Shown here: one piece after another, positions 8,362-63,244 of the stretch
Position numbering within the stretch: the stretch's first letter is position 1
How the letters are laid out: each line of letters starts with the position of its first letter
NCBI RefSeq assembly: GCF_019721995.1
Contig: NZ_BLYC01000001.1
Location: 62,001 to 126,000 of the forward strand
Length of the DNA stretch: 64,000 nt
Direction of reading: 5' to 3'
From: Bathymodiolus japonicus methanotrophic gill symbiont
GTDB taxonomy: Bacteria; Pseudomonadota; Gammaproteobacteria; Methylococcales; Methylomonadaceae
The notes under the pieces: generated by a model
What the model saw: only the letters and a program-made list of their open reading frames with translations
Databases searched by the model: none
What the model was told of the DNA's origin: nothing
Translations under genes and position numbers: made by a program

Positions 8362-9276
8362 TCAGCGTATCCACACGTTCCGTAGGAAATTCACGCTTTG
8401 TCCACATGGAGTCCGCCTGCAGGGACTCTCACGTATAGACCGTTTTTTTTTATAATAAACCTCCGCTGGCGTTCGATAGTCCAAGGACTGATGAATTCGC
8501 CTGTGATTGTAAAATTCAAAATAGTCTTTCAGCCCTAAATATGCTTCATTCACTGTCTGAAAGTCATTCAGATAGACCTTTTCATATTTGACTGATCGCC
8601 ACAATCGTTCAACAAGAATATTATCCAATGCGCGGCCTCTGCCATTCATGCTAACACGGATTCCTTTCTCCAATAAGGGCCCTGTAAATCGATTCGTTGT
8701 GAATTGACTTCCCTGGTCCGTATTAAAGATTTCACACTGTGATGAACTTAGTGTTTCATTAAGGGCTGCTATGCAAAAGTCTGCGTCCATTGTCGTACTT
8801 AACGCCCAATTAAGTACATATCGGCTATGCCAGTCAATAATGGCCATCAGATAGACAAAACCATGCTTCATGCGGATGTAGGTAATATCCGTACTCCAGA
8901 CCTGATTGCATCGCTCGATCTGCAGGTTTCTCAGTAAATAAGGATAGATCTTATGCTCTGAGTTGCCCTGACTTAGTCTTGGCTTTCGCTGTCAGCCCCG
9001 GACGGGCTGATAGTCTCCAGAAGGCGCAGGGAAATTTGCCAATCCGAAGTGCGCGATAGCGCGCGAGGGAGGCTAAAATTTTATCCCGAATAGCCGTAGA
9101 GCCATTTGTGGTAGCCATGACTGAGCTGCTTTGTGCTCAGTCTGTGGCGGACGCAGGGCGGCTGGAGCATCTCCTATTCGCTGCGTAGGTGAACGAATTA
9201 CGGCGACAGGAGTCCCGGAATTCCGTGAGGTAGCATGGCGCGCCTGGGATATACCGCTTCCAGCCCCATCTGCCTT
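8362..9276 (-). pseudogene. IS3-family transposase orfB, N-terminus lost, split by R260
   Basis: The catalytic integrase core of an IS3-family transposase is present. Visible parts are a WSTDITYI lead, an Asp in IIDWHSR, NTDQGSQFT, and the Glu in VERLWRSVKYE, followed by YNHRRIHQSLDYRTPAEVYY. The R260 at 8987-9246 interrupts it. Joining 8986 to 9247 gives an unbroken frame reading QMGLEAVYPKPRLSQ, so the insertion duplicated no target bases. The 5' part of orfB is gone, replaced at 9277 by other mobile DNA. Confidence 0.88.
8987..9246 (-). mobile_element. R260 structured repeat, copy 1 (in IS3 orfB)
   Basis: This is a complete 260-bp copy. Forward is defined as starting CAGGCGCGCC and ending GACAGCG; this copy is reversed relative to the plus strand. 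The inferred empty site in element orientation is tatcc/aaagc, with no duplicated bases. The element holds several hairpins, including a terminal one with arms CTATCAGCCC and GGGCTGACAG. Confidence 0.9.
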
Positions 9277-9325
9277 CGCTGAAAATCATCACTTCGCTTA
9301 GGCTCCGTTTCCCTGATTTTCAGCG
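9277..9325. repeat. 49-bp solo terminal hairpin related to R295
   Basis: The sequence is a perfect inverted repeat, CGCTGAAAATCA and TGATTTTCAGCG around a 25-nt loop. Loop and right arm are identical to the last bases of R295, but the left arm has become CGCTGAAAATCA instead of CTAAAAATCA, making both ends identical. It lies at the join between IS3 and IS630 sequence. Confidence 0.8.
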
Positions 9326-10368
9326 GCGGTAGAAGAAAAGAGTGTCGTTTTATTCGGTGATGAGGTGTCATTTGCTATGTGGGGTTCATTGGCACGAACC
9401 TGGGCTCCAATAGGAGAGCAACCCACAGTGAAAACATCAGGGATTCGAAAAGGGTTGGTACGATCGAACTCGAAGGAGGGAGTTTTCAATACCGAGAATC
9501 ATTGGCTTATGAGATAAAACCAAAGTCACTTAGACTTTTAAAAGAAGCTGGGCTGCCTCAAGAATTTTTAGCTATTCTTAAAAGCTTAAAAAATGAGAAA
9601 TATCCAACACAGAAGCTTTTTATGGAAGCGATATATTCTATTGCCGACAACGTCTTAATCGAGAGTTATAAGCCAATGATATTACAACACGCTGAAACAT
9701 CTGGGCGTTTTAATGGTGAAAGCTATGTTGAGTTTTTAACACAATTGCTGGCTTATTATAAAGGCAAGATTATTCTAATTGAAGATGGTGCCCCGTATCA
9801 TGGAAGCGGTGTTATTAAGGAATTTAAGTTAGCTAATGTAGATCGTTTGACAGTAGAACGTCTCCCTGCGTTCTCGCCCGCTGTCAGCCCCGGACGGGCT
9901 GATAGTCTCCAGAAGGCGCAGGGAAATTTGCCAATCCGAAGTGCGCGATAGCGCGCGAGGGAGGCTAAAATTTTATCCCGAATAGCCGTAGAGCCATTTG
10001 TGGTAGCCATGACTGAGCTGCTTTGTGCTCAGTCTGTGGCGGACGCAGGGCGGCTGGAGCATCTCCTATTCGCTGCGTAGGTGAACGAATTACGGCGACA
10101 GGAGTCCCAGAATTTCGTGAGGTAGCATGGCGCGCCTGGGATTTTAATCCGATTGAGAAATTATGGAAAAATACGAAACGCGATTCGACTCATATGAAGT
10201 ATTTTAAAACTTTTGAAGATCTTCATGATTCAGTTGTGCAAACTTTTAACACTTATATGCATGATGCCAGTAAAGTGATTTGTGTTATGCAAAAATTGCG
10301 GGAAGATTTCGTTGTTACCGCCTAAGTTTAAGCGCTCCAAATTTGGAAATTATTTATCTGAGAAACTA
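9326..10368 (+). pseudogene. IS630-family transposase fragment, frameshifted and split
   Basis: This copy matches the second half of the IS630 transposase at 57341-58630. It begins at AVEEKSVVLFGDEVSF and lacks the N-terminal part. A 10-bp deletion relative to the other copy near 9457 shifts the frame just after GIRKGL. R260 copy 2 sits at 9879-10138. The C-terminus (DFNPIEKLW to VVTA) resumes after it and stops at 10325. The IS end TTTCTCAG-type repeat runs to 10368 and is followed by TA, the family target. Confidence 0.88.
9879..10138 (-). mobile_element. R260 structured repeat, copy 2 (in IS630)
   Basis: A complete 260-bp copy, reversed. The empty site is directly visible in the other IS630 copy near 57525-57540. 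In element orientation it reads aatcc/ggcga, and the two sides rejoin with no gained or lost base. This is one of the cleanest demonstrations of insertion without target duplication. Confidence 0.93.
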
Positions 10369-10370
10369 TA

Positions 10371-10988
10371 GCATGGCAATGGCTCCAGGGTTAATAGTCA
10401 TTGGCAAGGTTGTCACAAACCGGTGAAGTTTTCCGGTTTCTGGGTCACGGTAATCCACCACGTTAAATTTGATGCCCTTGTTTTCGTACACACTGTATGC
10501 TTCAACCCCTGTATTGATCTCATGGCGGGAGTCAAAAGGGATAGACTCAACCAGAGTCGCAATTGAATTTTCTTTTAGCATTGAAATCATGTAATTAGCA
10601 TGTCGTTTCTGCCGATCCCACCAGACAAAGTCGGTGACGGCTTTATCGTAGACATAGAGATGTTTCTGAGAGCTGTTATTTCCCTTGTTTTGCTTTTCAA
10701 TATGATCTCGTAACACAGGTATTTCTTGATGTCTCTGAGTTTCGTTTGTCACCAGACAAAGAAATCTGAGCAACCCACTTCTGAGATTCAACGCGTAAAT
10801 CCCCCCGGCCGCATAAACTTTCCCCTTGCTGTTTTTTCAGTATGGCAGGCATGATCAATAAAATGTCCATCCGCCGCTTCTATGGTGTATTCGTCAAGTT
10901 CCGGGAATGCTTTAAGATAATCAATGCCTTGCGATAGCAGTGTTTCAGCGTGAAGATGATAGCTCTGCTGTTCAAATGCCTCAAGCAT
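10371..10988 (-). pseudogene. IS4-family transposase internal fragment
   Basis: This segment matches the middle of the complete IS4-family transposases at 29121-30679 and 48083-49921, from MLEAFEQQSYHLHAE to PMTINPGAIAML. One A is missing in a run near 10828, so the frame breaks at the ACHTEK segment. The left edge is cut by the IS630 end. The right edge is fused to IS3 orfA at the codon for Met in MLEAFEQQ. Both IS ends are missing, so it is a rearranged remnant. Confidence 0.88.
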
Positions 10989-11117
10989 ATTGTTGATTTG
11001 TGTTGCATGAATACCATATTTCGCGGTAATTTCAGCTCTTGTCTTTTCCCCTTTTAGTACGTCTAATACCACTTTTACTTTGGTTTGCGTACTATGCTTC
11101 TTCCGATTTATGGTCAT
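10989..11117 (-). pseudogene. IS3-family orfA, N-terminal fragment
   Basis: The 43 codons from the ATG at 11117 encode a typical IS3 orfA helix-turn-helix start (RKKHSTQTKVKVVLDVLKGE, then EITAKYGIHATQIN). The frame then runs straight into IS4-family sequence, so the rest of orfA and the frameshift region are lost. Confidence 0.82.
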
Positions 11118-11353
11118 TTCTTAATCCTCAGTTTTGAGGGCAAGATTCTATCTTAAATGCTGGTCTAGTTTTTGGGGATCATTATAGTTTTTTTAGAGCT
11201 TCTCTATTATTTTTTAGTATATCTCTTGTATATCGGGAGTCTACGCATGATGATAAATTCTCTGATAAATAACAAAACAGGAAAAAATCCTATATTTTTT
11301 GTGTTTCTTAGCGCTTACAATTTGGTTTTTTTTAATCTAGAATTATAAATAAA

Positions 11354-13663: not shown

Positions 13664-13834
13664 GGCAACACAATTAATAACCTGGCATGTTTAGGGTATG
13701 GCGCAGGATTTTTTTATTCGTCTTCAATACTCAATGTAGGGAGCATTGCAAGCTATGTGATCTGAGTTGCAACGCAGAAGGCGGATAAAAAGACAAGTTA
13801 GGGGCTGGCGGGTTATTTATTGCGAGTTGCCTAA
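13661..13834. mobile_element. MITE-C copy 1
   Basis: This is one of three dispersed copies of a roughly 150-170-bp repeat with ends close to TAAGGCAACTCGCAATAA and complement (others at 34140-34285 and 60526-60685). Internal stretches such as GCGCAGGATTTTT and the bases around CAACGCAGAAG are shared. The first triplet coincides with the stop codon of the TonB receptor. I see no reading frame. Confidence 0.7.
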
Positions 13835-13867
13835 TAAAGGTAGTGTATTTTAAGTGAAGTAACAGGC

Positions 13868-13898
13868 ATAAAAAAACCTGCGTGAAGCAGGTTCTTAA
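13868..13898. terminator. Probable intrinsic terminator
   Basis: A hairpin with arms AACCTGC and GCAGGTT, preceded by a run of A and followed by TTCTTAATA, could act in either direction. It is suitably placed after the TonB receptor gene. Confidence 0.55.
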
Positions 13899-14255
13899 TA
13901 ATGTAAATTTTATTATTTTTATTTTTAAATGGAAACTAAATCCTTTTTAAGCTTATTTGTTATTTTTTTTGTTAAGCCTCTCTTACCTCGTTGTCCCTGT
14001 TTTTCTTTACTTAAATCCCTCAAGTGGGACAAAGTATATATCAATAATTTAGTGAGTGTCTATCAAAAAAATGATATTTTGATTAAAAGAAGTTTCGCGT
14101 CGAAAGCATAATACAAAAACAAGGGTTTAATATTTTTTAGGGCTTAAAAAAGTGTGATGTAGCTGGCATTTTCTGCCTGATGATTATGCGCTGAATTATT
14201 TATTATGCTGCTGGTAAAGTTTAATGAGCGTCGCAGGATCCTGCTCTAAAAAACC

Positions 14256-14515
14256 CAGGCGCGCCATGCTACCTCACGAAATTCCGGGACTCCTGTCGCC
14301 GTAATTCGTTCACCTACGCAGCGAATAGGAGATGCTCCAGCCGCCCTGCGTCCGCCACAGACTGAGCACAAAGCAGCTCAGTCATGGCTACCACAAATGG
14401 CTCTACGGCTATTCGGGATAAAATTTTAGCCTCCCTCGCGCGCTATCGCGCACTTCGGATTGGCAAATTTCCCTGCGCCTTCTGGAGACTATCAGCCCGT
14501 CCGGGGCTGACAGCG
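14256..14515 (+). mobile_element. R260 structured repeat, copy 3 (in dehydrogenase gene)
   Basis: A complete 260-bp copy, forward on the plus strand. Flanks in element orientation are aaacc/gtggt. Excision restores the codons for NHGFLEQ of the host gene, with no target duplication. Confidence 0.92.
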
Positions 14516-15317: not shown

Positions 15318-15612
15318 CGCTGAAAATCCTGGAAACGGAGCTTTAGCGAAGTGAAGATTTTTAGTCCGCGATAGCCGTAGGGCCGTTGTTTTGTCGGAGT
15401 CTGAGCGTTAGCGAAGGTGGAGACAAAATAAAAGGCCATCCGACACGGCGTCAAGTCATTTGGAGCCTATGTTCCGACCCCTTGTTGGGTCGGGACAAGG
15501 TGACGAGGACGAATCGGGGCCGCCGGAGGCATAAGTGGTCGCGTTAAGTTTTTGCTGCTTGCTTGGGCTGGGATGCCCAAAACAAGCTTTCGCAAAAATA
15601 GCGACTCCCCGA
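15318..15612 (-). mobile_element. R295 structured repeat, copy 1 (in dehydrogenase gene)
   Basis: A complete 295-bp copy, reversed. R295 starts TYGGGGAGTCGC and ends TGATTTTCAGCG. It contains strong hairpins, including arms CCGACCC/GGGTCGG and TTTTGTC/GACAAAA. Excision rejoins accca/ggggt and restores the eighth and ninth codons of the dehydrogenase (Gln-Gly). Confidence 0.92.
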
Positions 15613-15651
15613 TGGGTTGGTTTAGAGTCAGTCATAGATGATATAGGCAGA

Positions 15652-15972: not shown

Positions 15973-16010
15973 TTGGATTTCCTGTTTTTAAGTAAAAAAG
16001 TGTTTGGAGC

Positions 16011-26883: not shown

Positions 26884-26960
26884 CGGGGTATAGCGCAGTT
26901 TGGTAGCGCGCCTGCTTTGGGAGCAGGATGTCGGGGGTTCGAATCCCTCTACCCCGACCA
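26884..26960 (+). tRNA. tRNA-Pro (anticodon TGG)
   Basis: 77-nt cloverleaf with acceptor CGGGGTA/TACCCCG, anticodon stem CCTGC/GCAGG with loop TTTGGGA, T-arm GGGGGTTCGAATCCCTC and encoded CCA. First of three clustered tRNA genes. Confidence 0.97.
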
Positions 26961-26967
26961 AAATAAT

Positions 26968-27044
26968 GCGCTTGTAGCTCAGCTGGATAGAGCATCGGCC
27001 TTCTAAGCCGAGGGTCGCAGGTTCGACTCCTGCCAAGCGTACCA
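26968..27044 (+). tRNA. tRNA-Arg (anticodon TCT)
   Basis: 77-nt cloverleaf with acceptor GCGCTTG/CAAGCGT, anticodon stem TCGGC/GCCGA with loop CTTCTAA, T-arm CGCAGGTTCGACTCCTGC and encoded CCA. Confidence 0.97.
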
Positions 27045-27069
27045 ATATTCCTTAAAGTATCTACATTAT

Positions 27070-27146
27070 GGTGAGCGTAGCTCAGTTGGTAGAGTCCCGG
27101 ATTGTGATTCCGGTTGTCGCGGGTTCGAACCCCGTCGTTCACCCCA
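27070..27146 (+). tRNA. tRNA-His (anticodon GTG)
   Basis: Cloverleaf with anticodon stem CCGGA/TCCGG and loop TTGTGAT. The extra G at 27070 can pair with the discriminator C, the G-1 expected for tRNA-His. CCA is encoded. Confidence 0.97.
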
Positions 27147-27556: not shown

Positions 27557-27684
27557 TAGCGACTCCCCGCTTATTTTGTCTCCACCTTCGCTAACGCTCA
27601 GACTCCGACAAAATAACGGCCCTACGGCTATCGCGGACTAAAAATCATCACTTCGCTTAGGCTCCGTTTCCCTGATTTTCAGCG
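27557..27684 (+). mobile_element. R295-related element, shortened and rearranged
   Basis: The last about 115 bases match the right part of R295 (from TTTTGTCTCCACC to TTTTCAGCG). Its left edge is AGCGACTCCCCG, the inverse complement of the R295 start CGGGGAGTCGCT. The left end has therefore been inverted and about 165 bases of interior are missing. Confidence 0.75.
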
Positions 27685-28584: not shown

Positions 28585-28732
28585 CTTATAGGCATCAGTG
28601 TTCCCATTGAAAGAAGAAGTACCTAAACAAAGCAGCCTATAACCTACCTGAAGGCAGCACCACTCGAATATTCCCATCTTTTTGATTTTAATCACTTATA
28701 ACAGCAAATAGACACTCTGTAGGCACCGTAAA

Positions 28733-29027
28733 TCGGGGAGTCGCTATTTTTGCGAAAGCTTGTTTTGGGCATCCCAGCCCAAGCAAGCAGCAAAAACTTA
28801 ACGCGACCACTTATGCCTCCGGCGGCCCCGATTCGTCCTCGTCACCTTGTCCCGACCCAACAAGGGGTCGGAACATAGGCTCCAAATGACTTGACGCCGT
28901 GTCGGATGGCCTTTTATTTTGTCTCCACCTTCGCTAACGCTCAGACTCCGACAAAACAACGGCCCTACGGCTATCGCGGACTAAAAATCTTCACTTCGCT
29001 AAAGCTCCATTTCCAGGATTTTCAGCG
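28733..29027 (+). mobile_element. R295 structured repeat, copy 2 (in IS4-family leader)
   Basis: A complete 295-bp copy, forward. It lies between the left IS end and the transposase start. The empty site is visible in copy 3 near 50015-50020: the bases on either side (gtaaa/aaa) rejoin without a duplication. Confidence 0.9.
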
Positions 29028-29120: not shown

Positions 29121-30679
29121 ATGCTTAAAGACCTACCACTCTCTGAACATATTCACCAACACTGCAATGAAAGTATGGAACGTGCCCTGTTAGCAGAGCG
29201 TCATCCTTTGTGGGCTCGTTCATGCCCAGAGTTGAAGGATATCGACTTTATTCGCCTTGGGTTATTACGCTGTATCAGTGTAGTCGATAGTGGTCGCCAT
29301 TTCCTCCAAACCAATGAACAGATTTATGGCCAGCTGCTTCCCCACTCAACGTATTTTAAATCACTGAAGTCGCATAGGCGAACAAGTATGCTTGAGGCAT
29401 TTGAACAGCAGAGCTATCATCTTCACGCTGAAACACTTCTATCGCAAGGCATTGATTATCTTAAAGCATTCCCGGAACTTGACGAATACACCATAGAAGC
29501 AGCGGATGGACATTTTATTGATCATGCCTGCCATACTGAAAAAAACAGCAAGGGGAAAGTTTATGCGGCCGGGGGGATTTACGCGTTGAATCTCAGAAGT
29601 GGGTTGCTCAGATTTCTTTGTCTGGTGACAAACGGAACTCAGAGACATCAAAAAATACCTGTGTTACGAGATCATATTGGAAAGCAAAACAAGGGAAATA
29701 ACAGCTCTCAGAAACATCTCTATGTCTACGATAAAGCCGTCACCGACTTTGTCTGGTGGGATCGGCAGAAACGACATGCTAATTACATGATTTCAATGCT
29801 AAAAGAAAATTCAATTGCGACTCTGGTTGAGTCTATCCCTTTTGACTCCCGCCATGAGACCAATACAGGGGTTGAAGCATACAGTGTGTACGAAAACAAG
29901 GGCATCAAATTTAACCAGGCGCGCCATGCTACCTCACGAAATTCCGGGACTCCTGTCGCCGTAATTCGTTCACCTACGCAGCGAATAGGAGATGCTCCAG
30001 CCGCCCTGCGTCCGCCACAGACTGAGCACAAAGCAGCTCAGTCATGGCTACCACAAATGGCTCTACGGCTATTCGGGATAAAATTTTAGCCTCCCTCGCG
30101 CGCTATCGCGCACTTCGGATTGGCAAATTTCCCTGCGCCTTCTGGAGACTATCAGCCCGTCCGGGGCTGACAGCGGTGGTGGATTACCGTGATCCAGAAA
30201 CCGGAAAACTTCACCGGTTTGTGACAACCTTGCCAATGACTATTAACCCTGGAACCATTGCCATGCTGTATTTCAAGCGATGGACGATTGAAAAGACATT
30301 CAATAACACTAAAAGTAATTTCAAGGAAACTAAAGCTTGGTCTTCCAATACCCGCTCACTTGAAAATCAAATGCGCCTGACTGCAATGAGCTATAATTTA
30401 ATGCGCGTGTTTGAAGAGATTTCAAAAACACAACAGCCAGAATTGATTCATCCATCGGATAAAAAATATAGCGAGGCTCTGGAGATTAGGCAGCAACAGG
30501 CTCAAAAACGAGATCGTTTTGTGAATCCATTATTTTTCCAGGCAAGAATATCTCGTATCAGCTCGTATACCATTCGGGCAGTTCAAAACGCAATAATAAC
30601 AGGAATGTCTTTACAGTGCTTTATGAGCTCTCTTGTGGCGAGGTTAGTTTCACGGCCTCAATTGATAGGGGAACACTGA
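29121..30679 (+). pseudogene. IS4-family transposase, interrupted by R260
   Basis: A DDE transposase with the IS4 signature Y-x2-R-x3-E-x6-K, visible as YFKRWTIEKTFNNTK near its C-terminal third. The N-terminus MLKDLPLSEHIHQHC and the Asp-bearing segments EAADGHFIDHA and YVYDKAVTDF are intact. R260 at 29916-30175 interrupts the frame after NKGIKFN. Joining the sides gives NKGIKFNVVDYRDPETGK exactly as in copy 3. Apart from this the frame is open to 30679. Confidence 0.92.
29916..30175 (+). mobile_element. R260 structured repeat, copy 4 (in IS4-family transposase)
   Basis: A complete 260-bp copy, forward. The empty site ttaac/gtggt is read directly from the uninterrupted stretch near 48580-48595 of the sister IS. 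No base is duplicated or lost. Internal hairpin GCGC-TATC-GCGC is at about 30100-30111. Confidence 0.94.
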
Positions 30680-30714: not shown

Positions 30715-30995
30715 CGCTGAAAATCATGGAAACGGAGCTTAGCGAAGTGGTGATTTTTAGTCCCTGATAGGCGACAGGGCAATTCGCTGATTCGACGTGT
30801 GCTAGCAGCACGCGAGAGGAGCAAGAATTTGCATTCCGAATAGCCGTCCAGCCAGTGAGGTAGTAATGACTAAGCGGATTTTGTGCGTAGTCGTTGCGGA
30901 CGCAGGGCGTTCAGGACATCTCCCATCCGCTGCGTAGGTGAACGAATTATGGCGACAGGAGTCCCGGAATTTCGTGAGGTAGCATGGCGCGCCTG
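30715..30995 (-). mobile_element. R280 structured repeat, copy 1
   Basis: A 281-bp copy, reversed. R280 starts CAGGCGCGCC like R260 and ends TGATTTTCAGCG like R295. It sits 26 bp past the right target duplication of the IS, in sequence without a recognisable gene. Confidence 0.88.
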
Positions 30996-33619: not shown

Positions 33620-33637
33620 TATGATGATCTGAAGGAA

Positions 33638-33929
33638 TCGGGGAGTCGCTATTTTTGCTGCTTGTTTTGGGCATCCCAGCCCAAGCAAGCAGCAAAAACT
33701 TAACGCGACCACTTATGCCTCCGGCGGCCCCGATTCGTCCTCGTCACCTCGTCCCGACCCAACAAGGGGTCGGAACATAGGCTCCAAATGACTTGACGCC
33801 GTGTCGAATGGCCTTTTATTTTGTCTCCACCTTCGCTAACGCTCAGACTCCGACAAAACAACGGCCCTACGGCTATCGCGGACTAAAAATCATCACTTCG
33901 CTTAGGCTACGTTTCCCTGATTTTCAGCG
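33638..33929 (+). mobile_element. R295 structured repeat, copy 3 (just upstream of glnL)
   Basis: A 292-bp copy, forward, three bases shorter near its left hairpin than the standard. It separates glnL from whatever lay upstream and contributes a spurious N-terminal extension to the glnL frame. Confidence 0.9.
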
Positions 33930-36028: not shown

Positions 36029-36912
36029 ATGAAACGATTAATAATTGCATTTATTCTGGGCTGTTTACTGACGCTGAAAATCATGGAAACGGAGCTTAGC
36101 GAAGTGGTGATTTTTAGTCCCTGATAGGCGACAGGGCAATTCGCTGATTCGACGTGTGCTAGCAGCACGCGAGAGGAGCAAGAATTGCATTCTGAATAGC
36201 CGTCCAGCCAGTGAGGTAGTAATGACGAAGCGGCTTTTGTGCGTAGTCGTTGCGGACGCAGGGCGTTCAGGGCATCTCCCATCCGCTGCGTAGGTGAACG
36301 AATTATGGCGACAGGAGTCCCGGAATTTCGTGAGGTAGCATGGCGCGCCTGCTGCATGTCAGACATTTTCACGTGATGATGATCCAGGCCCAAAGTCGTC
36401 TTTAGCACCAGGTGAAGTTGCTTTTGGCCCCTTGGCAGCAATAGACAGGAAGCAATATTTAATAGAGCAGCATGCATTGCTCCGCAGTAAATTACTGGAT
36501 AAAGGTGTTGAGTCAAAAATAGAGGGTGAAACGTTGATTGTAAACATTCCAGGAAATATTGCGTTTGGTATTAATTCGGCGCGGATGAACTGGAATGTCC
36601 ATAATATCCTGGATAAAATTACGCCTATTTTACAAGAATATAAATACACTTCGATACTGGTGCTAGGGCATTCAGATTCTCAAGGCGACCAAGAGCTTAA
36701 TCAGCTACTTTCCGAGCAAAGAGCCAGAGTAATACGTGAGTACTTTAATTAATAGTGGTGTTGATAGTCAGCGCTTAACATCCAGAGGCCTAGGCGGTGA
36801 TGACCCGCTAGTTGTTGATGAACTGACTAGCCTGGAGCGTGCCCTGAATAGACGGATTACCCTGGAAATTAAAATTGACGATAGCTTAGTGGGGAAAGGT
36901 TCGAGTGACTAG
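36029..36912 (+). pseudogene. OmpA-family peptidoglycan-associated lipoprotein, interrupted in its lipobox
   Basis: The gene starts MKRLIIAFILGCLL at 36029. R280 (36072-36351) follows in the next codon. Removing it restores LLTACQTFSRDDD, a perfect lipobox with the lipid-anchored Cys, and an open frame into an OmpA-C domain (ILVLGHSDSQGDQELNQLLS, EQRARVIREYF). One extra T near 36748 then shifts the frame. After it the expected C-terminus reads SRGLGGDDPLVVDE and ALNRRITLEI, ending at 36912. The protein would have tied the outer membrane to peptidoglycan. Two independent lesions suggest it is dead. Confidence 0.88.
36072..36351 (-). mobile_element. R280 structured repeat, copy 2 (in lipoprotein gene)
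   Basis: A complete 280-bp copy, reversed. Excision joins the fifteenth codon (ACT) and recreates the LTAC lipobox, so no target bases were duplicated. Confidence 0.92.
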
Positions 36913-38272: not shown

Positions 38273-38772
38273 CTGAAGTTTCCCAATAATTATTTATGGT
38301 AAAATTGAAACTATGCTACAACTATATGAAAAAAAACAGTCTTTTCATTCGCTGAAAATCCTGGAAACGGAGCTTTAGCGAAGTGAAGATTTTTAGTCCG
38401 CGATAGCCGTAGGGCCGTTGTTTTGTCGGAGTCTGAGCGTTAGCGAAGGTGGAGACAAAATAAAAGGCCATCCGACACGGCGTCAAGTCATTTGGAGCCT
38501 ATGTTCCGACCCCTTGTTGGGTCGGGACGAGGTGACGAGGACGAATCGGGGCCGCCGGAGGCATAAGTGGTCGCGTTAAGTTTTTGCTGCTTGCTTGGGC
38601 TGGGATGCCCAAAACAAGCTTTCGCAAAAATAGCGACTCCCCAACGTTTCAAATGCTATTGCCTAAGGGGAATTAAGTAGGGGTTTGCTATAAACATGGC
38701 AAAACCACCTAAAATAAACCTCGATACACCAGCATTGTGTATTTCAGCTACTCAATAATTGGGAAACTTCAG
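38273..38772. mobile_element. MITE-B copy with an R295 inside
   Basis: The 500-bp interval starts and ends with the MITE-B inverted repeats and is flanked by an 8-bp duplication ATTCTTAA on both sides. Removing the R295 at 38350-38644 leaves a 205-bp MITE matching the copy at 22595. Confidence 0.92.
38350..38644 (-). mobile_element. R295 structured repeat, copy 4 (in MITE-B)
   Basis: A complete 295-bp copy, reversed. The empty site aaacg/aatga in element orientation is read from the MITE-B at 22595. The halves rejoin with no gained base if the terminal CG is counted as part of the element. Confidence 0.92.
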
Positions 38773-40117: not shown

Positions 40118-41034
40118 TTATCTAAATGAGACACCTACACCACCCAGCCCACAATAACCGGCTGGATTTTTGGCCAGATATTGCTGATGCTCATTTTCTG
40201 CATAATAAAAAACCGGGGTAGATATGATTTCGGTACTGATTAAGCCAAGCCCCGCTGCTGTGAGCCGCTGCTGATAATGCTGTTTTGATTGTAGCGCTGC
40301 ATCAAGCTGCCGCTTAAAATCAGGGAAACGGAGCCTAAGCGGAGTGATGATTTTTAGTCCCTGGTAGGCGACAGGGCAATTCGCTGATCCGAAGTGCGCT
40401 AGTAGCGCTCGAGGGAGGCAAGAATTGCATTCCGAATAGCCGTCCAGCCATTTGAGGTAGTCTTAACGGAGCAGGGTTTTGTGCGTAGTTGAGACGGACG
40501 CAGGGCGACCAGGGCATCTCCCATTCGCTGCGTAGGCGAATGAATGTTGGTGACAGAAGTCCCAGAATGTTGTGAGGTAGCATGGCGCGCCTGTCGGCAC
40601 TGGTTGCGTAGATGGCCGAACGATACTGGGTGCCGATATCATTACCCTGGCGCATGCCTTGAGTAGGGTCATGTGCTTGCCAGAAAAGTGCGAGTAAATT
40701 CTGATAGCTGATTTTTACCGGATCAAACATTACTTTAACTACTTCGGTATGTCCGGTTAAGCCAGTACAGAGCTCTTTATATGTTGGGTTAGGCGTGAAC
40801 CCACCGGCATAACCAACCCGCTGTACTGAAGATGCCTTGCTGTTGCCAGAAAAGTCGCTCTGCTCCCCAGAAACAACCCAGAGCAAAAATAGTATGCTGA
40901 ATATTTTCAGGCAGGGGAGGAGCAATAGGCTTGGCTGTTACAAAATGTTTTTTCGGTATACAGATTGCAGTGTCACGGCCGGGTAATGCCTCTTCAGCCG
41001 TAGGGAGTGATAGTTTTTTTTGTGAAAATAACAT
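40118..41034 (-). pseudogene. msrA: Peptide methionine sulfoxide reductase A, interrupted and frameshifted
   Basis: MsrA reduces methionine-S-sulfoxide in proteins. The N-terminal frame begins at 41034 and reaches the catalytic [14 protein letters not shown]. An extra G near 40816 then shifts the frame. The continuing frame reads [30 protein letters not shown] and [14 protein letters not shown]280 (40311-40593) interrupts here. After it the C-terminus resumes ([37 protein letters not shown]) and stops at 40118. Excision of the R280 restores the Glu codon exactly. The frameshift is independent, so the gene is inactive as read. Confidence 0.92.
40311..40593 (-). mobile_element. R280 structured repeat, copy 3, divergent (in msrA)
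   Basis: A 283-bp copy, reversed, clearly older or a different lineage: many substitutions relative to the other R280 copies, but the same ends (with CGCTTAAAATC for CGCTGAAAATC). Some bases match R260 instead (for example AAGTGCGC). Stem positions change in a compensating way. Confidence 0.88.
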
Positions 41035-41923: not shown

Positions 41924-41924
41924 A

Positions 41925-48077: not shown

Positions 48078-49158
48078 GATCATCAGTGTTCCCCTATCAA
48101 TTGAGGCCGTAAAACTAACCTCGCCACAAGAGAGCTCATAAAGCACTGTAAAGACATTCCTGTTATTATTGCGTTTTGAACTGCCCGAATGGTATACGAG
48201 CTGATACGAGATATTCTTGCCTGGAAAAATAATGGATTCACAAAACGATCTCGTTTTTGAGCCTGTTGCTGCCTTATCTCCAGAGCCTCGCTATATTTTT
48301 TATCCGATGGATGAATCAATTCTGGCTGTTGTGTTTTTGAACTCTCTTCAAACACGCGCATTAAATTATAGCTCATTGCAGTCAGGCGCATTTGATTTTC
48401 AAGTGAGCGGGTATTGGAAGACCAAGCTTTAGTTTCCTTGAAATTACTTTTAGTGTTATTGAATGTCTTTTCAATCGTCCATCGCTTGAAATACAGCATG
48501 GCAATGGTTCCAGGGTTAATAGTCATTGGCAAGGTTGTCACGAACCGGTGAAGTTTTCCGGTTTCTGGATCACGGTAATCCACCACGTTAAATTTGATGC
48601 CCTTGTTTTCGTACACACTGTATGCTTCAACCCCTGTATTGATCTCATGGCGGGAGTCAAAAGGGATAGACTCAACCAGAGTCGCAATTGAATTTTCTTT
48701 TAGCATTGAAATCATGTAATTAGCATGTCGTTTCTGCCGATCCCACCAGACAAAGTCGGTGACGGCTTTATCGTAGACATAGAGATGTTTCTGAGAGCTG
48801 TTATTTCCCTTGTTTTGCTTTTCAATATGACCTCGTAACACAGGTATTTCTTGATGTCTCTGAGTTCCGTTTGTCACCAGACAAAGAAATCTGAGCAACC
48901 CACTTCTGAGATTCAACGCGTAAATCCCCCCGGCCGCATAAACTTTCCCCTTGCTGTTTTTTTCAGTATGGCAGGCATGATCAATAAAATGTCCATCCGC
49001 TGCTTCTATGGTGTATTCGTCAAGTTCCGGGAATGCTTTAAGATAATCAATGCCTTGCGATAGCAGTGTTTCAGCGTGAAGATGATAGCTCTGCTGTTCA
49101 AATGCCTCAAGCATACTTGTTCGTCTATGCGACTTCAGTGATTTAAAATACATTGAGT

Positions 49159-49698
49159 CAGGCGCGCCATGCTACCTCACGAAATTCCGGGACTCCTGTC
49201 GCCATAATTCGTTCACCTACGCAGCGGATGGGAGATGCCCTCGCTGTCAGCCCCGGACGGGCTGATAGTCTCCAGAAGGCGCAGGGAAATTTGCCAATCC
49301 GAAGTGCGCGATAGCGCGCGAGGGAGGCTAAAATTTTATCCCGAATAGCCGTAGAGCCATTTGTGGTAGCCATGACTGAGCTGCTTTGTGCTCAGTCTGT
49401 GGCGGACGCAGGGCGGCTGGAGCATCTCCTATTCGCTGCGTAGGTGAACGAATTACGGCGACAGGAGTCCCGGAATTTCGTGAGGTAGCATGGCGCGCCT
49501 GGAACGCCCTGCGTCCGCAACGACTACGCACAAAAGCCGCTTCGTCATTACTACCTCACTGGCTGGACGGCTATTCGGAATGCAATTCTTGCTCCTCTCG
49601 CGTGCTGCTAGCACACGTCGAATCAGCGAATTGCCCTGTCGCCTATCAGGGACTAAAAATCACCACTTCGCTAAGCTCCGTTTCCATGATTTTCAGCG
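49159..49698 (+). mobile_element. R280 copy 4, itself split by an R260
   Basis: Forward copy. The two arms 49159-49241 and 49502-49698 add to 280 bp. The insertion point in the transposase gene (cccc/actc on the gene strand) matches copy 2 exactly without duplication. Confidence 0.93.
49242..49501 (-). mobile_element. R260 structured repeat, copy 5 (inside R280)
   Basis: A complete 260-bp copy, reversed. The interrupted R280 reads gatgccct/gaacgccc on the plus strand, exactly the uninterrupted sequence of the R280 at 36072-36351. R260 was therefore mobile after R280. Confidence 0.94.
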
Positions 49699-53662: not shown

Positions 53663-53668
53663 TCAATT

Positions 53669-53998
53669 GTAGGGCGTGGCTTTAGCCCGCTCTTTCGCTG
53701 TCAGCCCCGGACGGGCTGATAGTCTCCAGAAGGCGCAGGGAAATTTGCCAATCCGAAGTGCGCGATAGCGCGCGAGGGAGGCTAAAATTTTATCCCGAAT
53801 AGCCGTAGAGCCATTTGTGGTAGCCATGACTGAGCTGCTTTGTGCTCAGTCTGTGGCGGACGCAGGGCGGCTGGAGCATCTCCTATTCGCTGCGTAGGTG
53901 AACGAATTACGGCGACAGGAGTCCCGGAATTTCGTGAGGTAGCATGGCGCGCCTGTATCAAAGCAGGTAGATGTTTGCGGGCTGAAGCCACGCCCTAC
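53669..53998. repeat. REP-type palindrome with an R260 in its loop
   Basis: The arms GTAGGGCGTGGCTTTAGCCC (from 53669) and GGGCTGAAGCCACGCCCTAC (to 53998) form the same palindrome as at 1937-2004. R260 occupies the loop between them. Confidence 0.85.
53696..53955 (-). mobile_element. R260 structured repeat, copy 6 (in REP loop)
   Basis: A complete 260-bp copy, reversed. Flanks in element orientation are tgata/aaaga; unlike most R260 sites the left flank does not end in C. Confidence 0.9.
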
Positions 53999-54022
53999 AA
54001 AAAGAGTTTTTGAGAATTTATT

Positions 54023-55117: not shown

Positions 55118-55129
55118 TTTAATTACCTA

Positions 55130-56180: not shown

Positions 56181-56440
56181 CGCTGTCAGCCCCGGACGGG
56201 CTGATAGTCTCCAGAAGGCGCAGGGAAATTTGCCAATCCGAAGTGCGCGATAGCGCGCGAGGGAGGCCAAAATTTTATCCCGAATAGCCGTAGAGCCATT
56301 TGTGGTAGCCATGACTGAGCTGCTTTGTGCTCAGTCTGTGGCGGACGCAGGGCGGCTGGAGCATCTCCTATTCGCTGCGTAGGTGAACGAATTACGGCGA
56401 CAGGAGTCCCGGAATTTCGTGAGGTAGCATGGCGCGCCTG
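56181..56440 (-). mobile_element. R260 structured repeat, copy 7 (in IS30)
   Basis: A complete 260-bp copy, reversed. Inferred empty site in element orientation: tagcc/gttga. Excision restores the codons for IAVDKLN, without duplication. Confidence 0.92.
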
Positions 56441-57297: not shown

Positions 57298-58725
57298 TAG
57301 TTTCTCAGATAAATAATTTCCAAATTTGGAGCGCTTAAACTTAGGCGGTAACAACGAAATCTTCCCGCAATTTTTGCATAACACAAATCACTTTACTGGC
57401 ATCATGCATATAAGTGTTAAAAGTTTGCACAACTGAATCATGAAGATCTTCAAAAGTTTTAAAATACTTCATATGAGTCGAATCGCGTTTCGTATTTTTC
57501 CATAATTTCTCAATCGGATTAAAATCCGGCGAGAACGCAGGGAGACGTTCTACTGTCAAACGATCTACATTAGCTAACTTAAATTCCTTAATAACACCGC
57601 TTCCATGATACGGGGCACCATCTTCAATTAGAATAATCTTGCCTTTATAATAAGCCAGCAATTGTGTTAAAAACTCAACATAGCTTTCACCATTAAAACG
57701 CCCAGATGTTTCAGCGTGTTGTAATATCATTGGCTTATAACTCTCGATTAAGACGTTGTCGGCAATAGAATATATCGCTTCCATAAAAAGCTTCTGTGTT
57801 GGATATTTCTCATTTTTTAAGCTTTTAAGAATAGCTAAAAATTCTTGAGGCAGCCCAGCTTCTTTTAAAAGTCTAAGTGACTTTGGTTTTATCTCATAAG
57901 CCAATGATTCTCGGTATTGAAAACTCCCTCCTTCGAGTTCGATCGTACCAAACATTTTCAACCCTTTTCGAATCCCTGATGTTTTCACTGTGGGTTGCTC
58001 TCCTATTGGAGCCCAGGTTCGTGCCAATGAACCCCACATAGCAAATGACACCTCATCACCGAATAAAACGACACTCTTTTCTTCTACCGCCTTTTCCATA
58101 ATGGCAGGCAATGTTTCTTCCAGCCACGTTTTTCTTTCAAGCTCGTACTTTTCTTCTTCTTGGCGATCAGTCACAAAACGAGCTTTTTGATAACTGAAGC
58201 CCAGTTTTTTCATTAGGCTTGATAAATAGTTCAAGTTATAACGAACTTCAAATTTTAACCAAATAAGCTCGGCAATCATCGCAGTATTCCATATTCCACA
58301 ATGAAATCCATTGTCTTCTGGGCCTTTCTTTATCAACTCAACCAATTTATTTTTCTGGTCTTTAGTTAACTTTGACTTCCGACCACGTCCTTGATAGTGT
58401 TGCCCTATTAACCAACCGACACCTTTATGCATGAATGTTTTCAGCCAATTTATAATGGTTTTTTCACAGACTCACATTAGGCGTGCTATTTCTTTGATTC
58501 CCATGCATTCACTGAACCAGAGTAGAGCTTGAGTTAATCGATATAAACAAATATTACTTAGCTTGAGAGCTGTCGCCATATTTTTTTTTAGTCGGTCTAC
58601 AATTGACTTTGAAAAAGTGAGGGATACCATTTTTGACTGTTTCCGTTAGTGTTGGGACGAAAATTATAAGCCAGTTTCCCCTCTGTCGTTTTTGTTTGTT
58701 CGGAAATTAATTTTCTGAAAGTCTA
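57298..58725 (-). mobile_element. IS630-family element inserted in IS30
   Basis: Imperfect inverted ends TAGTTTCTCAGATAAATAAT and, on the other strand, TAGACTTTCAGAAAATTAAT, flanked by TA on both sides (57296-57297, 58726-58727), the family target. Length about 1.43 kb. Confidence 0.85.
57341..58630 (-). pseudogene. IS630-family transposase with one in-frame stop
   Basis: The full frame from the ATG at 58630 is 430 codons, with a single TGA at codon 53 (58472-58474) in the N-terminal helix-turn-helix region (GIKEIARLM, stop, VCEKTIINWL). Downstream of it an ATG at 58432 opens 363 residues with the DDE core: VVLFGDEVSFAMWG, IILIEDGAPYHGSG and the final Glu in DFNPIEKLWKNTKR. This copy lacks R260 and supplies the empty site for copy 2. 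Confidence 0.9.
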
Positions 58726-59027
58726 TAGGTGTGTATAGCTCATTTGTAGCCTCTGTAAATTGTTTGGTAGCTGTTTACTTTACACCTATGTCTTGTCTTA
58801 ATTCAACAGGTGTTAGTCTAGCCAATACTTGCAGAGGGTTATGCACTTATTATACGAATTCAGGTCTTTTAATAAGCCTAATGCAATCTCTGTTTTGGTC
58901 GGGTAGGCACTGTCACGTTCAGGCTTAATAGGCCGATCTTTTTCTGCTATACCGCTCTTTTTCAACCGTTTATCTTCTTTATCCCACTGCTTTAAGGCTG
59001 GATCCGGCATATAAAAGAAAAAACCGA

Positions 59028-59322
59028 TCGGGGAGTCGCTATTTTTGCGAAAGCTTGTTTTGGGCATCCCAGCCCAAGCAAGCAGCAAAAACTTAACGCG
59101 ACCACTTATGCCTCCGGCGGCCCCGATTCGTCCTCGTCACCTCGTCCCGACCCAACAAGGGGTCGGAACATAGGCTCCAAATGACTTGACGCCGTGTCGG
59201 ATGGCCTTTTATTTTGTCTCCACCTTCGCTAACGCTCAGACTCCGACAAAACAACGGCCCTACGGCTATCGCGGACTAAAAATCATCACTTCGCTTAGGC
59301 TCCGTTTCCCTGATTTTCAGCG
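59028..59322 (+). mobile_element. R295 structured repeat, copy 5 (in IS-A transposase)
   Basis: A complete 295-bp copy, forward. Excision rejoins accga/cagg and restores the transposase codons TVPVGFFFY. Confidence 0.92.
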
Positions 59323-59487
59323 CAGGCACTGTAATGGATGAGGTAACTAGCAGCAATAATACTATCGTTTGTCCATTAACATAACCGCCGGAGCCTTTGT
59401 GTTTCTGTTTGTAAACCTTATAAATACGTTTTGTAGACTTAGATCGTGCTCGGTCTGATTCATCAAAGGCCAACACACCTTCAGTAA

Positions 59488-59986
59488 CTGAAGTTTCCCA
59501 ATTATTGATTGGGGAGTCGCTATTTTTGCGAAAGCTTGTTTTGGGCATCCCAGCCCAAGCAAGCAGCAAAAACTTAACGCGACCACTTATGCCTCCGGCG
59601 GCCCCGATTCGTCCTCGTCACCTCGTCCCGACCCAACAAGGGGTCGGAACATAGGCTCCAAATGACTTGACGCCGTGTCGGATGGCCTTTTATTTTGTCG
59701 CCACCTTCGCTAACGCTCAGACTCCGACAAAATAACGGCCCTACGGCTATCGCGGACTAAAAATCATCACTTCGCTTAGGCTCCGTTTCCCTGATTTTCA
59801 GCGGTAGCTGAAATACACAATGCTGGTGTATCGAGGTTTATTTTAGGTGGTTTTGCCATGTTTATAGCAAACCCCTACTTAATTCCCCTTAGGCAATAGC
59901 ATTTGAAACGAATGAAAAGACTATTTTTTTCATATAGTTGTAGCATAGTTTCAATTTTACCATAAATAATTATTGGGAAACTTCAG
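59488..59986. mobile_element. MITE-B copy inside IS-A, with R295 inside it
   Basis: 499 bp with intact MITE-B ends and a 9-bp duplication CTTCAGTAA at 59479-59487 and 59987-59995. Removing the R295 leaves a 204-bp MITE. Removing the MITE and one duplication restores the IS-A frame. Confidence 0.93.
59509..59803 (+). mobile_element. R295 structured repeat, copy 6 (in MITE-B)
   Basis: A complete 295-bp copy, forward. The empty site attga/gtagc is seen in the other MITE-B copies. There is no duplicated base. Confidence 0.94.
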
Positions 59987-60363
59987 CTTCAGTAATGCCA
60001 TAACGTTTTAAAATTAAGACCACACTCACCCGTAGCAACCAGTCCCAGGGTATACTTGCTTTACGAAACACCCAGGATAATGCGGCTACTTTGCAATCTC
60101 CAAGGCTTGCTCGCTCAAACTTAGCCCAGCAAACAGAGTTCATTAGCAGTATGCCCGTTAAACAAGTGCCCAACCAAGCGGCTTGAATCCGTGTCAAAGC
60201 GGCTCCGGGTTTTAGCTGATTGAGCGCATCATTTAAATCGTCAATATAGCTTTGGATAAAGGTGGCTGGGGCATTCATTAACATGGGCTTACACCGATAA
60301 AATTACAACAACCTCAGAATACCTGATTTTACCTTCTCAATATCAAAAACTTGAACATCGAGT

Positions 60364-60525
60364 GAGAGCAAGCAAGCCTGTATTAATGATGCAATACGTT
60401 CGACGCAACGGTTTGAAGGCATTAAGGGATTAATTTCCTTCGATGAAACAGGCAAGGCTCATCGCTCACTGTTTATAAACAGGTTCGAGAATGGGCAACT
60501 GAATTTTATAGTTCAGGTTTTTTAG
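60364..60525 (+). pseudogene. C-terminal remnant of a periplasmic amino-acid-binding receptor
   Basis: An open frame directly after the IS-A end reads DAIRSTQRFEGIKGLISFDE then TGKAHRSLFINRFENGQL and stops at 60525. The pattern 'FEGIKGLISFDETG' matches the C-terminal part of LivJ-type (Peripla_BP_6) branched-chain amino-acid receptors of ABC transporters. The rest of the gene has been removed by the IS-A events. Confidence 0.6.
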
Positions 60526-60685
60526 CTAAGGCGCAAAACAAATCTACCCATATTGCGCAGGATTTTTGTTTGTCTTCAAGGCGTATAAATAGGCGCATAG
60601 CTAGCTACGAAACTATTTCTACAACGCAGAAGACGGACAAAAAAACCTGCATGGTGGGTGGGTTATTTATTGCGAGTTGCCTTAA
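60526..60685. mobile_element. MITE-C copy 3
   Basis: About 160 bp, starting directly after the stop codon of the receptor remnant and ending TTGCGAGTTGCCTTAA. Shares TGCGCAGGATTTTTGTTTGT and CAACGCAGAAG segments with the other copies. Confidence 0.7.
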
Positions 60686-60748
60686 TACCGGTCTGATGTG
60701 ATTTGCGATAATGGCTTATTCAGAAATTCAATTATTTAACTTAAAACA

Positions 60749-61603
60749 ATGACGCTAATGCAAAAAAAAATCTTATTAAGCATGATATTGCTACAGGGCT
60801 GCAGTCATACTTCGGATAACATGACTGCGGCAGAGCAATTAATAGAGCCGCCTGATATTCGGCCTATCAGTGCAAACTTAAACAGCGGCAATCAGCAAAG
60901 GCGAAGCATGCAAAATTCATTATATGGCGACCAGTGGCAGCTAATCAGTTACTTCGCAGAGCAGGGGATGAAAGCTGTTTTAGCAGACACTGTGGTGAGT
61001 ATTGAGTTTGCAGAAAATAAAATATCGGGTAGTACCGGGTGTAACCGTTATTTTGGGGCTTTTCAGTTCACAGGCTATGACAGCTTGAATATATCTCAGC
61101 CAGGCATGACCATGATGGCCTGTTCGGAGCCTATTGCAGTGCAAGAACAGCAATAAAATCTAGCGGATATTAAATTCTACCAGTTTCAAGATGATATCTT
61201 GCAATTGCTAGACGCAGAAAGACAGATGCTGCTGATATTTAAAAACCTGCCGGTACTCACATTAGAGCAAACAACGTGGCAGATGATAGGCATTAATAAT
61301 GGCAAGGGCGGCGTGCTCAGTAGCGCGCAAACCGGCAAGGCCAGCCTGCAATTTATTGATGGCAAATTGCAGGGCAATAGCTGCTGTAATTCCCTGACTG
61401 CCAGTTACCAGCTAAATGGCACTGCAATAACGATTGGCCCGGTTATCAGCACACGGAAATTTTGTACAGATAATGACCTAATGGTTCAGGAGCAGCAGTT
61501 ATTACAGGAGCTAACAAAAGTGACGCGCTACGAAATTCGTGCAAATCAACTACGCGTAGTCGATGCTAATGGCGCGTTAATGCTGAATCTCAAGCAGCGA
61601 TAA
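60749..61603 (+). pseudogene. Twin META-domain lipoprotein with a premature stop
   Basis: An N-terminal lipoprotein signal (ILLSMILLQGCSHTS) is followed by a first META domain (WQLISYFAEQGMKAVLADT, GSTGCNRYFGAF, MACSEPIAVQEQQ). A TAA at 61154-61156 stops it. The same frame continues NLADIKFYQFQDDILQLLD and a second META domain (TTWQMIGINNGKGGV, GNSCCNSLTASYQL, KFCTDNDLMVQEQQ) to 61603. Family members are secreted or outer-membrane proteins related to HslJ. A single nonsense change explains the split. Confidence 0.8.
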
Positions 61604-61676
61604 TTGCTGGGCGATTTTTTCTGTCGGTGCTTAGCATGTCGAAGTAACGGTTAAGCTGAAGTTTCTTAGAAATTCA

Positions 61677-63244
61677 TCAAGGAACCATTCGCAATAAAAC
61701 GGCTACCACCGAATTTACAGGGGAGCTGCTGTATTTGGGGCAAACCCTTTCAAAATCCGGATCCAAAGCCGCTTCGGCAATGATGCGGCGGATATCTGAA
61801 AATGCGAAACTGGCTCGCCCCTTCACTTTGTGCCGACGTTCCGGATCGGTTTTTAAACGATCCGCGTAAATCCACGTCAGCGTTGTTGCCATCATACAGA
61901 AGTTCAAATGGTTGGTCACTGCCTGCGCATTTCGACACTGACTTTTCTGACTCCCTATGTCTTGCTTGAGCTCTTTGAACCCGGATTCTATTTTCCATCG
62001 CGCACCATAATACTCAATAATCTGTGTGACGGATAAACTTAGATCGGTCGTAAACAAAGCAATCCACTGTGTGCGACGAAACACCCAGACAACCTGAACG
62101 GGTCGTTTCAATGTTTTCAGCATGACAACGCGACTATAAGCCCTGACTTCACGCTGTTTTCCATAGAGATTCACGGTATACGATCGGGCCTTTTGTTGTA
62201 CTTTTTTTGCCATGTCTGTGGCTGACCTCAGACGCTGCCCGTACTTTTTATTCCGCCCCCTCTGCTTGGGTTTTCTTTTTTCTGGACGATCGTACAGTAC
62301 ATTATTGCACCTTAACCTAGAGAGAATATTAAACCGGCTTCCGATAGCTTTGTAAACAGGCTTCCATAGGCCATTGTTGCCAAACCAGCTATCAGTGACT
62401 GTCAATATCGGAGCGGTGGAAAAATGTTCTGCAATTGCAATCAGCATTTGAGCCGCCTGAGTCATCTTGGTCTGGAAAGGAACGACTTCCCCTCTTATCG
62501 TGGCGGTTTCTTTTTTTGCCTGAATTGTTTTTAAGGGCAGATAAAATCGGAAATCTAAAAATAAGCACGCCCAGCGACCGCTGAAAATCAGGGAAACGGA
62601 GCCTAAGCGAAGGTGGAGACAAAATAAAAGGCCATCCGACACGGCGTCAAGTCATTTGGAGCCTATGTTCCGACCCCTTGTTGGGTCGGGACGAGGTGAC
62701 GAGGACGAATCGGGGCCGCCGGAGGCATAAGTGGTCGCGTTAAGTTTTTGCTGCTTGCTTGGGCTGGGATGCCCAAAACAAGCTTTCGCAAAAATAGCGA
62801 CTCCCCGACTTTGACCTGTTTCAGCAACCCTACCGACACAATATTTTGTGCCCATGGATATTTGCTTTGATTCGATTTGGCCGCGTGGTCAAAAATGGCT
62901 TCACAGCCGAAGATATTTTTGCCTACTTTAGTGATAATGGAGTCATCCAGTGCAACCAATATGCGCCCATCTGTTTCAGGAGACGGAATCAGCTCCCAGA
63001 TAGTTTTCCACAGCCCAGCCCACGGCAAAGTTGAAGAAGCCATGAAAGTGTAAACGCGCTTATTCTTGATCTCAAACCCAAACAGCGTATCAAGGCAACG
63101 CCAAAGATTAGATGTCATCGACGACGTAAAGGGAACGATAATAGACGGGATCGTGTAAACAAACAGAGAGGCTCGTTCGCGGCCTAAAGTGGTTTTGGAA
63201 AAATGATCTTGAAACGGAAGTAAAGTATCGCGTAAAATGAACAT
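61677..63244 (-). pseudogene. IS-B transposase (IS4 family), split by an R295 remnant
   Basis: The N-terminal part starts at 63244 (MFILRDTLLPFQDHFSKT) and runs to SVGLLKQVK. The R295 remnant follows. The C-terminal part resumes GRWACLFLDFRFYLPLK and ends at 61677 (VAVLLRMVP). DDE residues are in VALDDSIITKVG, LTVTDSWFGNNG and the Y-x2-R-x3-E-x6-K signature YGARWKIESGFKELK. Joining across the insert gives an exact frame. Confidence 0.9.
62579..62808 (-). mobile_element. R295 structured repeat, copy 7, internally deleted (in IS-B)
   Basis: A 230-bp reversed copy with both R295 ends. About 65 bases are lost between two GCGAA-type repeats, removing one of its hairpin arms. Empty site caaag/gtcgc restores the IS-B frame. 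Confidence 0.9.

Follow-up and report, generated by a model that had tools for sequence, protein, structure and literature searches.

What are the small structured elements that recur about twenty times within 64 kb of a mussel symbiont genome, and how do they move? The stretch in question, hereafter the window, comprises 64,000 nucleotides of the Bathymodiolus japonicus methanotrophic gill symbiont (NZ_BLYC01000001.1, positions 62,001 to 126,000; C1:62001-126000 in our own labelling of contigs, C, genomes, G, and loci, L) and belongs to an assembly of 4.97 Mb in 109 contigs, of which 1.202 Mb was examined. A sequence-only reading of the window had described about twenty small modular elements in three length classes, R260, R280 and R295, as one lineage of non-autonomous mobile DNA. 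The analysis reported here supports that description in most respects and corrects it in others, above all in the strand that folds. The elements are a real, large and, it appears, hitherto undescribed family of mobile structured elements, and the twenty or so per 64 kb are a small sample of a family spread over a bacterial class.

Motif counts in the window, allowing up to one mismatch and compared with shuffled sequence, lay far above expectation for CAGGCGCGCC (17 occurrences against 3.0), TGATTTTCAGCG (14 against 0.5) and CTACGGCTAT (15 against 3.2). A covariance model built from the folded-strand first half of 27 R260/R280/R295 relatives (model R1) matches the window at exactly 20 places and recovers all three classes, in keeping with the single lineage that had been proposed. 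The 20 elements comprise 16 complete copies, one copy split by another and three derivatives: R260 is represented seven times, each copy being exactly 260 bp long; R280 four times, with three lengths of 281, 280 and 283 bp and a fourth copy interrupted by the R260 at 49242-49501; and R295 six times, at about 293-296 bp. Their G+C content (58% for R260, 54% for R280 and 54% for R295) exceeds the 43.9% of the window, as had been noted. The end modules are indeed exchangeable, since R260 and R280 have about 60 bp of one end in common, R280 and R295 share the opposite end, and a fourth combination elsewhere in the genome, an R295 body with a different terminal hairpin, shows that hybrids exist. 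All copies had been said to terminate in CAGCG, which fails for the copy at 40311-40593, where the terminus is AAGCG.

The elements are mobile and insert precisely without target duplication. Two R260 copies in the window lie inside transposase genes, whose intact counterparts (48083-49153 and 57341-58432) match DDE transposase families; once joined, the flanks equal these uninterrupted gene copies at every base, and nothing is duplicated or lost. Insertion of copies into each other, also described earlier, is seen in the window where R260 49242-49501 splits the R280 at 49159-49698, and the 1.202 Mb contains eight nested insertions, the halves of which abut exactly in seven cases and overlap by 3 bp in one. 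These exact empty sites and nested insertions, together with the failure to recognise a longer version that bears a protein, agree with the description of the elements as mobile and non-autonomous. Among the 434 matched pieces 341 are full-length (two of them touching a stretch edge), 16 form nested pairs, 13 are cut by stretch ends and 4 are internal, while truncated pieces lack one end in 32 cases and the other in 28. The same 1.202 Mb holds 360 intact terminal hairpins, and elements cover 9.0% of its bases; scaling by the tail pattern (382 in the whole genome, 111 in the 1.202 Mb) extrapolates to about 1,240 intact copies genome-wide. Copies inside host genes do occur, as had been stated, but they are depleted. 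The 89 testable sites are those of full copies flanked on either side by 900 bp free of elements; the empty site falls within an open reading frame (ORF) of at least 150 codons in 12 of 89 cases, compared to 642 of 1000 random positions, and insertions into genes are therefore selected against.

Insertion follows a one-sided, C-directed target rule on the folded strand. In the orientation used by the sequence-only reading the element is followed by NNNG, and this G is found at 98% of the R260 ends (51 distinct) and at 99% of the R280/R295 ends (87 distinct). Read on the folded strand, the arrangement becomes D-C-N-N-H followed by CGCTG. The resulting C at -4 was found at 354 of 360 ends in the 1.202 Mb, at all 54 ends with enough flank out of at least 55 that a pattern scan of other genomes' contigs turned up, at 14 of 16 ends in another set of relatives, at 52 of 53 CGCT starts in windows from four genomes and at 37 of 38 CGCT-type starts with flank among 60 distant loci. 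These sets partly overlap, in that G027 is the Methylotuvimicrobium buryatense of the pattern scan and G184 is present in both the distant and the four-genome sets. Across 339 distinct flanks, again in the earlier orientation, C is avoided at +1 and G at +5 and the rest is nearly free. The opposite side of the elements shows no consensus beyond bases in R295 that look element-derived.

The elements also prefer the lagging-strand template. Replication strand was inferred from GC skew, a proxy in common use: whichever strand is richer in G was taken to be the lagging-strand template. After masking of the elements, 289 of 360 copies have their folded strand on the G-rich side (p 2.5e-32; seven contigs, both skew signs). 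In five other genomes, covered by 40 windows, the folded strand is on the G-rich strand in 44 of 62 cases (p 0.0013), among them 17/20 in G184, 11/16 in G008, 8/11 in G027 and 5/8 in G093, although copies that neighbour each other are not independent.

The orientation implied by the sequence-only reading had to be reversed on the evidence of folding. The complement of that strand is more stable in 19 of 19 representatives, by 13 to 32 kcal/mol, and has the better z-score against shuffles in 15 of 19, with the R280 representative showing no excess stability over shuffles on either strand. Consensus energies are -66 for the folded strand and -31 for the other in R260/R280, and -65 and -52, respectively, in R295. 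Among mismatches flanked by pairs on both sides, the folded strand has 79 G.U and 0 A.C alignment cells, and at helix ends 105 G.U against 37 A.C. This excess of G.U shows which strand folds and not that it acts as RNA, because G.T pairs in DNA too. In the terminal hairpin with arms starting CTA and ending CAG, what appears as an A-C mismatch when written on the earlier strand is an invariant G.U pair (5-47) on the folded strand, present in 20 of 20 sequences of the R295 alignment. Our own first reading, which took the earlier strand to be an RNA with a target-adjacent motif (TAM) after it, was abandoned when the folding results reversed the strand.

Covariation supports a conserved fold. In R295, 31 of 63 pairs show compensatory changes, each of five measures was reached by 0 of 500 shuffles, and the signal collapses once pairing partners are slid; the alignment consists of 20 hand-picked full-length sequences and also supplied the structure, which somewhat favours it. 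For R260/R280 the corresponding figure is 19 of 73 pairs (14 hand-picked sequences, no shuffle control), and truncated and variant clusters were excluded from both alignments. Hairpins lie near both ends, with helix 1 at the 5' end and helices 7-11 at the 3' end of the R295 group, the 3'-end hairpin being less clear in R260/R280. Most likely the folded strand is also transcribed as a structured RNA, and this RNA is likely to have a function because the interior is conserved.

To account for these properties we favour a non-autonomous mobile element of the single-stranded DNA type that carries a conserved structured RNA and is moved in the manner of IS200/IS605, a reading that we would accept about as readily as doubt. 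Movement as single-stranded DNA by a HUH-type enzyme is the best fit, the chances for and against it being about even. The folded strand, rather than its complement, would be the one that moves; at replication forks it would be cut out and inserted in single-stranded form by an enzyme supplied in trans, which would recognise the terminal hairpin together with the C at -4, and the conserved interior would have a role as RNA, perhaps in recruiting or guiding the machinery. According to PMC6006769, IS200/IS605 enzymes direct their insertions to the lagging-strand template and recognise terminal hairpins, both documented for IS608/ISDra2, and cleavage falls where a 4-nt guide, located at the foot of the hairpin, meets a target tetranucleotide that is conserved. 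PMC7290912 describes PATEs as ends-only derivatives moved in trans. Our elements resemble both in the lack of duplication, the one-strand terminal hairpins, the lagging-template bias and the short derivatives moved in trans. They differ from IS200/IS605 in that one C is strict, a 4-nt guide in front of the hairpin is not clear, none of the copies seen contains tnpA, and the structured interior is conserved. A bolder version, possible but to our minds rather doubtful, would make them a class-wide family of mobile RNA genes, whose RNA and a partner encoded by the host would together steer the element's DNA into the lagging-strand template 3 bases past a C and which can occupy up to about a tenth of a genome without any protein.

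Several observations weigh against movement of the IS200/IS605 kind. Only one target base is strict (C at -4) and positions -3 to -1 are nearly free, whereas the IS200/IS605 target is a tetranucleotide, and among the 60 distant loci the C rule holds in just 2 of 21 rows with other starts, which are second-subtype, truncated or misaligned copies (one further locus has no flank). Pairing from the second base of the element leaves little room for a guide, and CGCT could act as one at the hairpin foot only with the G.U foot left open. G.U and A.C occur with about the same frequency in selected Watson-Crick columns, and a conserved interior is not needed by a purely DNA-based transposon. The strand preference is weakest on contig C14 (17 vs 12), and in G076 only 3 of 7 are on the G-rich strand. 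A longer element with the same ends and a protein, the check that had been suggested for the autonomous form, was not recognised among the loci fetched (the 1.2 Mb, relatives and 60 distant loci). Y1 genes are only weakly associated with the elements, being matched in 35 of 42 bearers and 206 of 327 non-bearers (p = 0.009; counts read by hand from two tables and rechecked), and 7 bearers, including G478 with at least 8 copies, have no Y1 match. Elements lie near none of the 18 Y1 loci from 15 bearers other than G184, in a set of 20 Y1 loci from 16 bearers of which 19 came from the Y1 matches listed and one (L355) was chosen for its element.

The prediction that the moving enzyme is not encoded in the window is consistent with our searches, which found no Y1, RRXRR or TnpB-ribbon match there, the control genomes of the RRXRR search being silent. 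The whole genome has 22 Y1 matches, many of them partial and at least one split by an R295 (L062). Recurrent neighbour genes gave no candidate in the clusters inspected, which looked by eye like frames through the element or transposases. When tested against IS200/IS605, REP/RAYT, HEARO/IscB, group II introns and miniature inverted-repeat transposable elements (MITEs), the elements lacked key defining features of each. The Rfam comparison that had been proposed gave nothing at gathering score on any element scanned, only stray sub-threshold matches, for instance to microRNA models. One of these is a signal recognition particle match in L324 (23.5 bits vs 70, E 0.0073).

A motif that flanks the element on one side only, at a constant distance and across three nearly free bases, is reminiscent of a protospacer-adjacent motif or TAM, and the structure begins at one border and closes near the other. 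Both features would suit a guide-RNA element like an omegaRNA or reRNA, in which the flank would be a 3' guide, the C at -4 the TAM, and an RNA-guided nuclease would act in trans to retain or insert copies. HEARO/IscB in relatives shows that such systems exist in this bacterial family; IscB genes occur at L169-L175, with HEARO RNAs at 4 of the 6 loci scanned. The HEARO/IscB omegaRNA (ISC) elements are likewise mobile with a long structured RNA and have a one-sided flanking motif, but the distance of that motif and the folding strand differ from those seen here. In PMC9755519, HEARO RNAs are placed upstream of IscB genes, 65% of such 5' regions matching RF02033. On our elements RF02033 gave no match, with its control positive at 4 of 6 IscB loci, and no alignment longer than 19 nt joins elements and IscB loci. 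The symbiont genome has no RRXRR/IscB match, in a search whose control genomes were silent too but which matched 22 of 151 relatives, and no match to the TnpB zinc ribbon (PF07282), for which the control was positive. Membership in IscB/HEARO was dropped after the RRXRR, RF02033 and blastn comparisons, and we regard a guide-RNA element as unlikely.

Less likely again is a retroelement, whose RNA would enter the lagging template by reverse transcription or reverse splicing, as in group II introns or in SINE-like RNAs that use the reverse transcriptase (RT) of another element. The RNA-like folding and the position of the folded strand on the lagging template speak for it, as do the modular ends with a common terminal hairpin, which resemble SINE tails. 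Group II introns and their ORF-less forms combine structured RNA with exact insertion and also favour the lagging-strand template. The elements, however, have no Rfam group II intron or domain V match, lack the AY 3' end of group II introns and are depleted from genes, which disfavours an intron. Truncations are balanced (32 vs 28), without the one-sided loss of target-primed copying, and a LINE/SINE-like origin was rejected in the absence of end-biased truncation; in addition, the nearly random flanks offer no extended target pairing. The genome has five RT matches, of which three were scanned against RT models: one passes the cut-off of Drt3a, a defence system, and the other two, group II/Drt3a-like and retron-like, remain below cut-off. 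The best match of L204 is the group II RT model, below its cut-off. RTs L204, L206, L207 and L208 lie on contigs C92, C102 and C85; the group II/Drt3a-like RT adjoins a small upstream ORF, and the small ORF upstream of the retron-like RT looks like a helix-turn-helix protein. In a distant genome, a group II intron match above gathering score (L277 268-343) lies more than 1 kb from the element.

Mobilisation by a RAYT (TnpA-REP), the elements being giant relatives of REPs, is very unlikely. REP/BIME sequences are, like our elements, palindromic, present in many mostly intergenic copies and served by an enzyme in trans, and the symbiont genome has a RAYT-like gene (L068; 65 bits, family cut-off 80). 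PMC6006769 gives REPs as 21-65 nt with GT[AG]G just 5' of the hairpin foot, and RAYTs as acting on palindromes in trans. The elements measure 260-310 bp, have their own structured core and carry no GT[AG]G box, the hairpin foot being CGCT, or ACTA on the other strand. In favour of a RAYT, both Y1 loci in G184 have elements nearby, within about 200 bp of the two Y1 genes. Against it, one of these elements sits, by eye, in the apparent REP of the RAYT at its locus, and the 0 of 18 loci in the other 15 bearers and the bearers without a Y1 match point the same way. At L290/L355 of G184 a RAYT-like gene is closely preceded by a REP-like repeat that contains the element, both names being read from the sequence by eye, and at L356 a stretch of 6.4 kb around a Y1 gene holds three elements, the closest of them some 160 bp from that gene. 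An assembly artefact, ordinary MITE or rearrangement debris has a negligible chance of being correct: many copies do lie at contig ends of draft genomes, and MITEs too are short, non-coding and present in many copies, but the same elements and rules recur in single-contig genomes of other species, and no terminal inverted repeats (TIRs; by eye) and no target duplication were seen.

The family is spread well beyond the window. A DNA search of 151 genomes, including the symbiont's own, gave a match in 40, and the tail pattern is present in 25 of the 151. Among the matches listed are Bathymodiolus methanotrophic symbionts, Methylotuvimicrobium buryatense, Methylomonas, Methylomicrobium, Methylicorpusculum and Methylomagnum. 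Also among the matches listed are three contigs labelled Bathymodiolus thiotrophic symbiont (L226, L244, L250) and one Rhodospirillales bin. These thiotrophic-symbiont and Rhodospirillales records may be binning mix-ups; for the thiotrophic-symbiont contigs, the elements reflect either transfer between co-resident symbionts or binning error. In a class survey with model R1 (E up to 0.01 per genome; E-values rough, about 4 chance matches expected), members were found in 42 of 369 Gammaproteobacteria genomes and 34 of 272 genera, many with several copies, and 37 of the 42 genomes reach E 1e-5 or better. Most of the members found follow the C rule and retain the TAGTC core as well as the hairpin at the 5' end. 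A second subtype (L293-L298, L313-L316, L321-L323, L339) starts with GAAGGAGCAC or AGCAC instead of CGCTG and has a similar core; its ends may be mutually complementary.

A phylum survey with a second model (R2) gave matches in 4 of 398 genomes, namely the symbiont's own, one marginal full-length match and two short marginal ones; absence of the family outside the class is only suggested, because model R2 has just 15 pairs. Plasmid matches came from four Methylomonas/Methylobacter/Methyloprofundus records, and distant queries added no further organism. Phage records gave no match for two element queries, nor did E. coli for one distant member used as query. We found no paper describing the family, which is weak evidence of novelty given thin coverage of subscription journals and titles only for some.

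The copies in the window are collected in Table 1. Solo hairpins of the CGCTG...CAGCG type without the rest of the element also occur near L080 17494 and L100 5077, and it is possible that solo terminal hairpins are footprints or a minimal form of the element. Insertions with ends CTCGATGTTCAAGTTTT and AAAACTTGAACATCGAG are found in R280 at about positions 227-231 (L086 542-978, L186, L197, L100); they apparently have a TATCA duplication and look like a TIR element that uses R280 as its site. The window also carries three consecutive tRNA genes at 26884-27143.

Table 1. Elements and empty target sites in the window. Strand is that of the folded strand, opposite to the orientation of the sequence-only reading.
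Feature	Position	Strand	Remark	Basis
R260	8987..9246	+		model R1 match
R260	9879..10138	+	inside transposase gene copy; empty site intact at 57527/57528	model R1 match
R260	14256..14515	-		model R1 match
R260	29916..30175	-	inside transposase gene copy; empty site intact at 48586/48587	model R1 match
R260	49242..49501	+	nested in R280 at 49159-49698	model R1 match
R260	53696..53955	+		model R1 match
R260	56181..56440	+		model R1 match
R280	30715..30995	+		model R1 match
R280	36072..36351	+		model R1 match
R280	40311..40593	+	variant R280b, 283 bp, terminus AAGCG	model R1 match
R280	49159..49698	-	split at own positions 83/84 by R260; no duplication, no loss	model R1 match
R295	15318..15613	+		model R1 match
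R295	28732..29027	-		model R1 match
R295	33637..33929	-	small internal difference	model R1 match
R295	38350..38644	+		model R1 match
R295	59027..59322	-		model R1 match
R295	59508..59803	-		model R1 match
R295 derivative	27560..27684	-	deletion derivative	model R1 match
R295 derivative	62579..62808	+	deletion derivative	model R1 match
Solo terminal hairpin	9277..9325	no strand	palindromic CGCTG...CAGCG	model R1 match
Empty target site	48557..48616	-	equals flanks of R260 29916-30175, to the base	flank comparison
Empty target site	57498..57557	+	equals flanks of R260 9879-10138, to the base	flank comparison

If this account is true, a mobile structured RNA would be present in about one in nine of the sampled gammaproteobacterial genomes and, by estimate, in a thousand-odd copies in one of them. 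Methanotroph and mussel-symbiont assemblies, in which many copies lie at contig ends, may owe some of their fragmentation to the elements. One base, one strand and one hairpin would then provide a testable handle toward an enzyme that handles single-stranded DNA or RNA.

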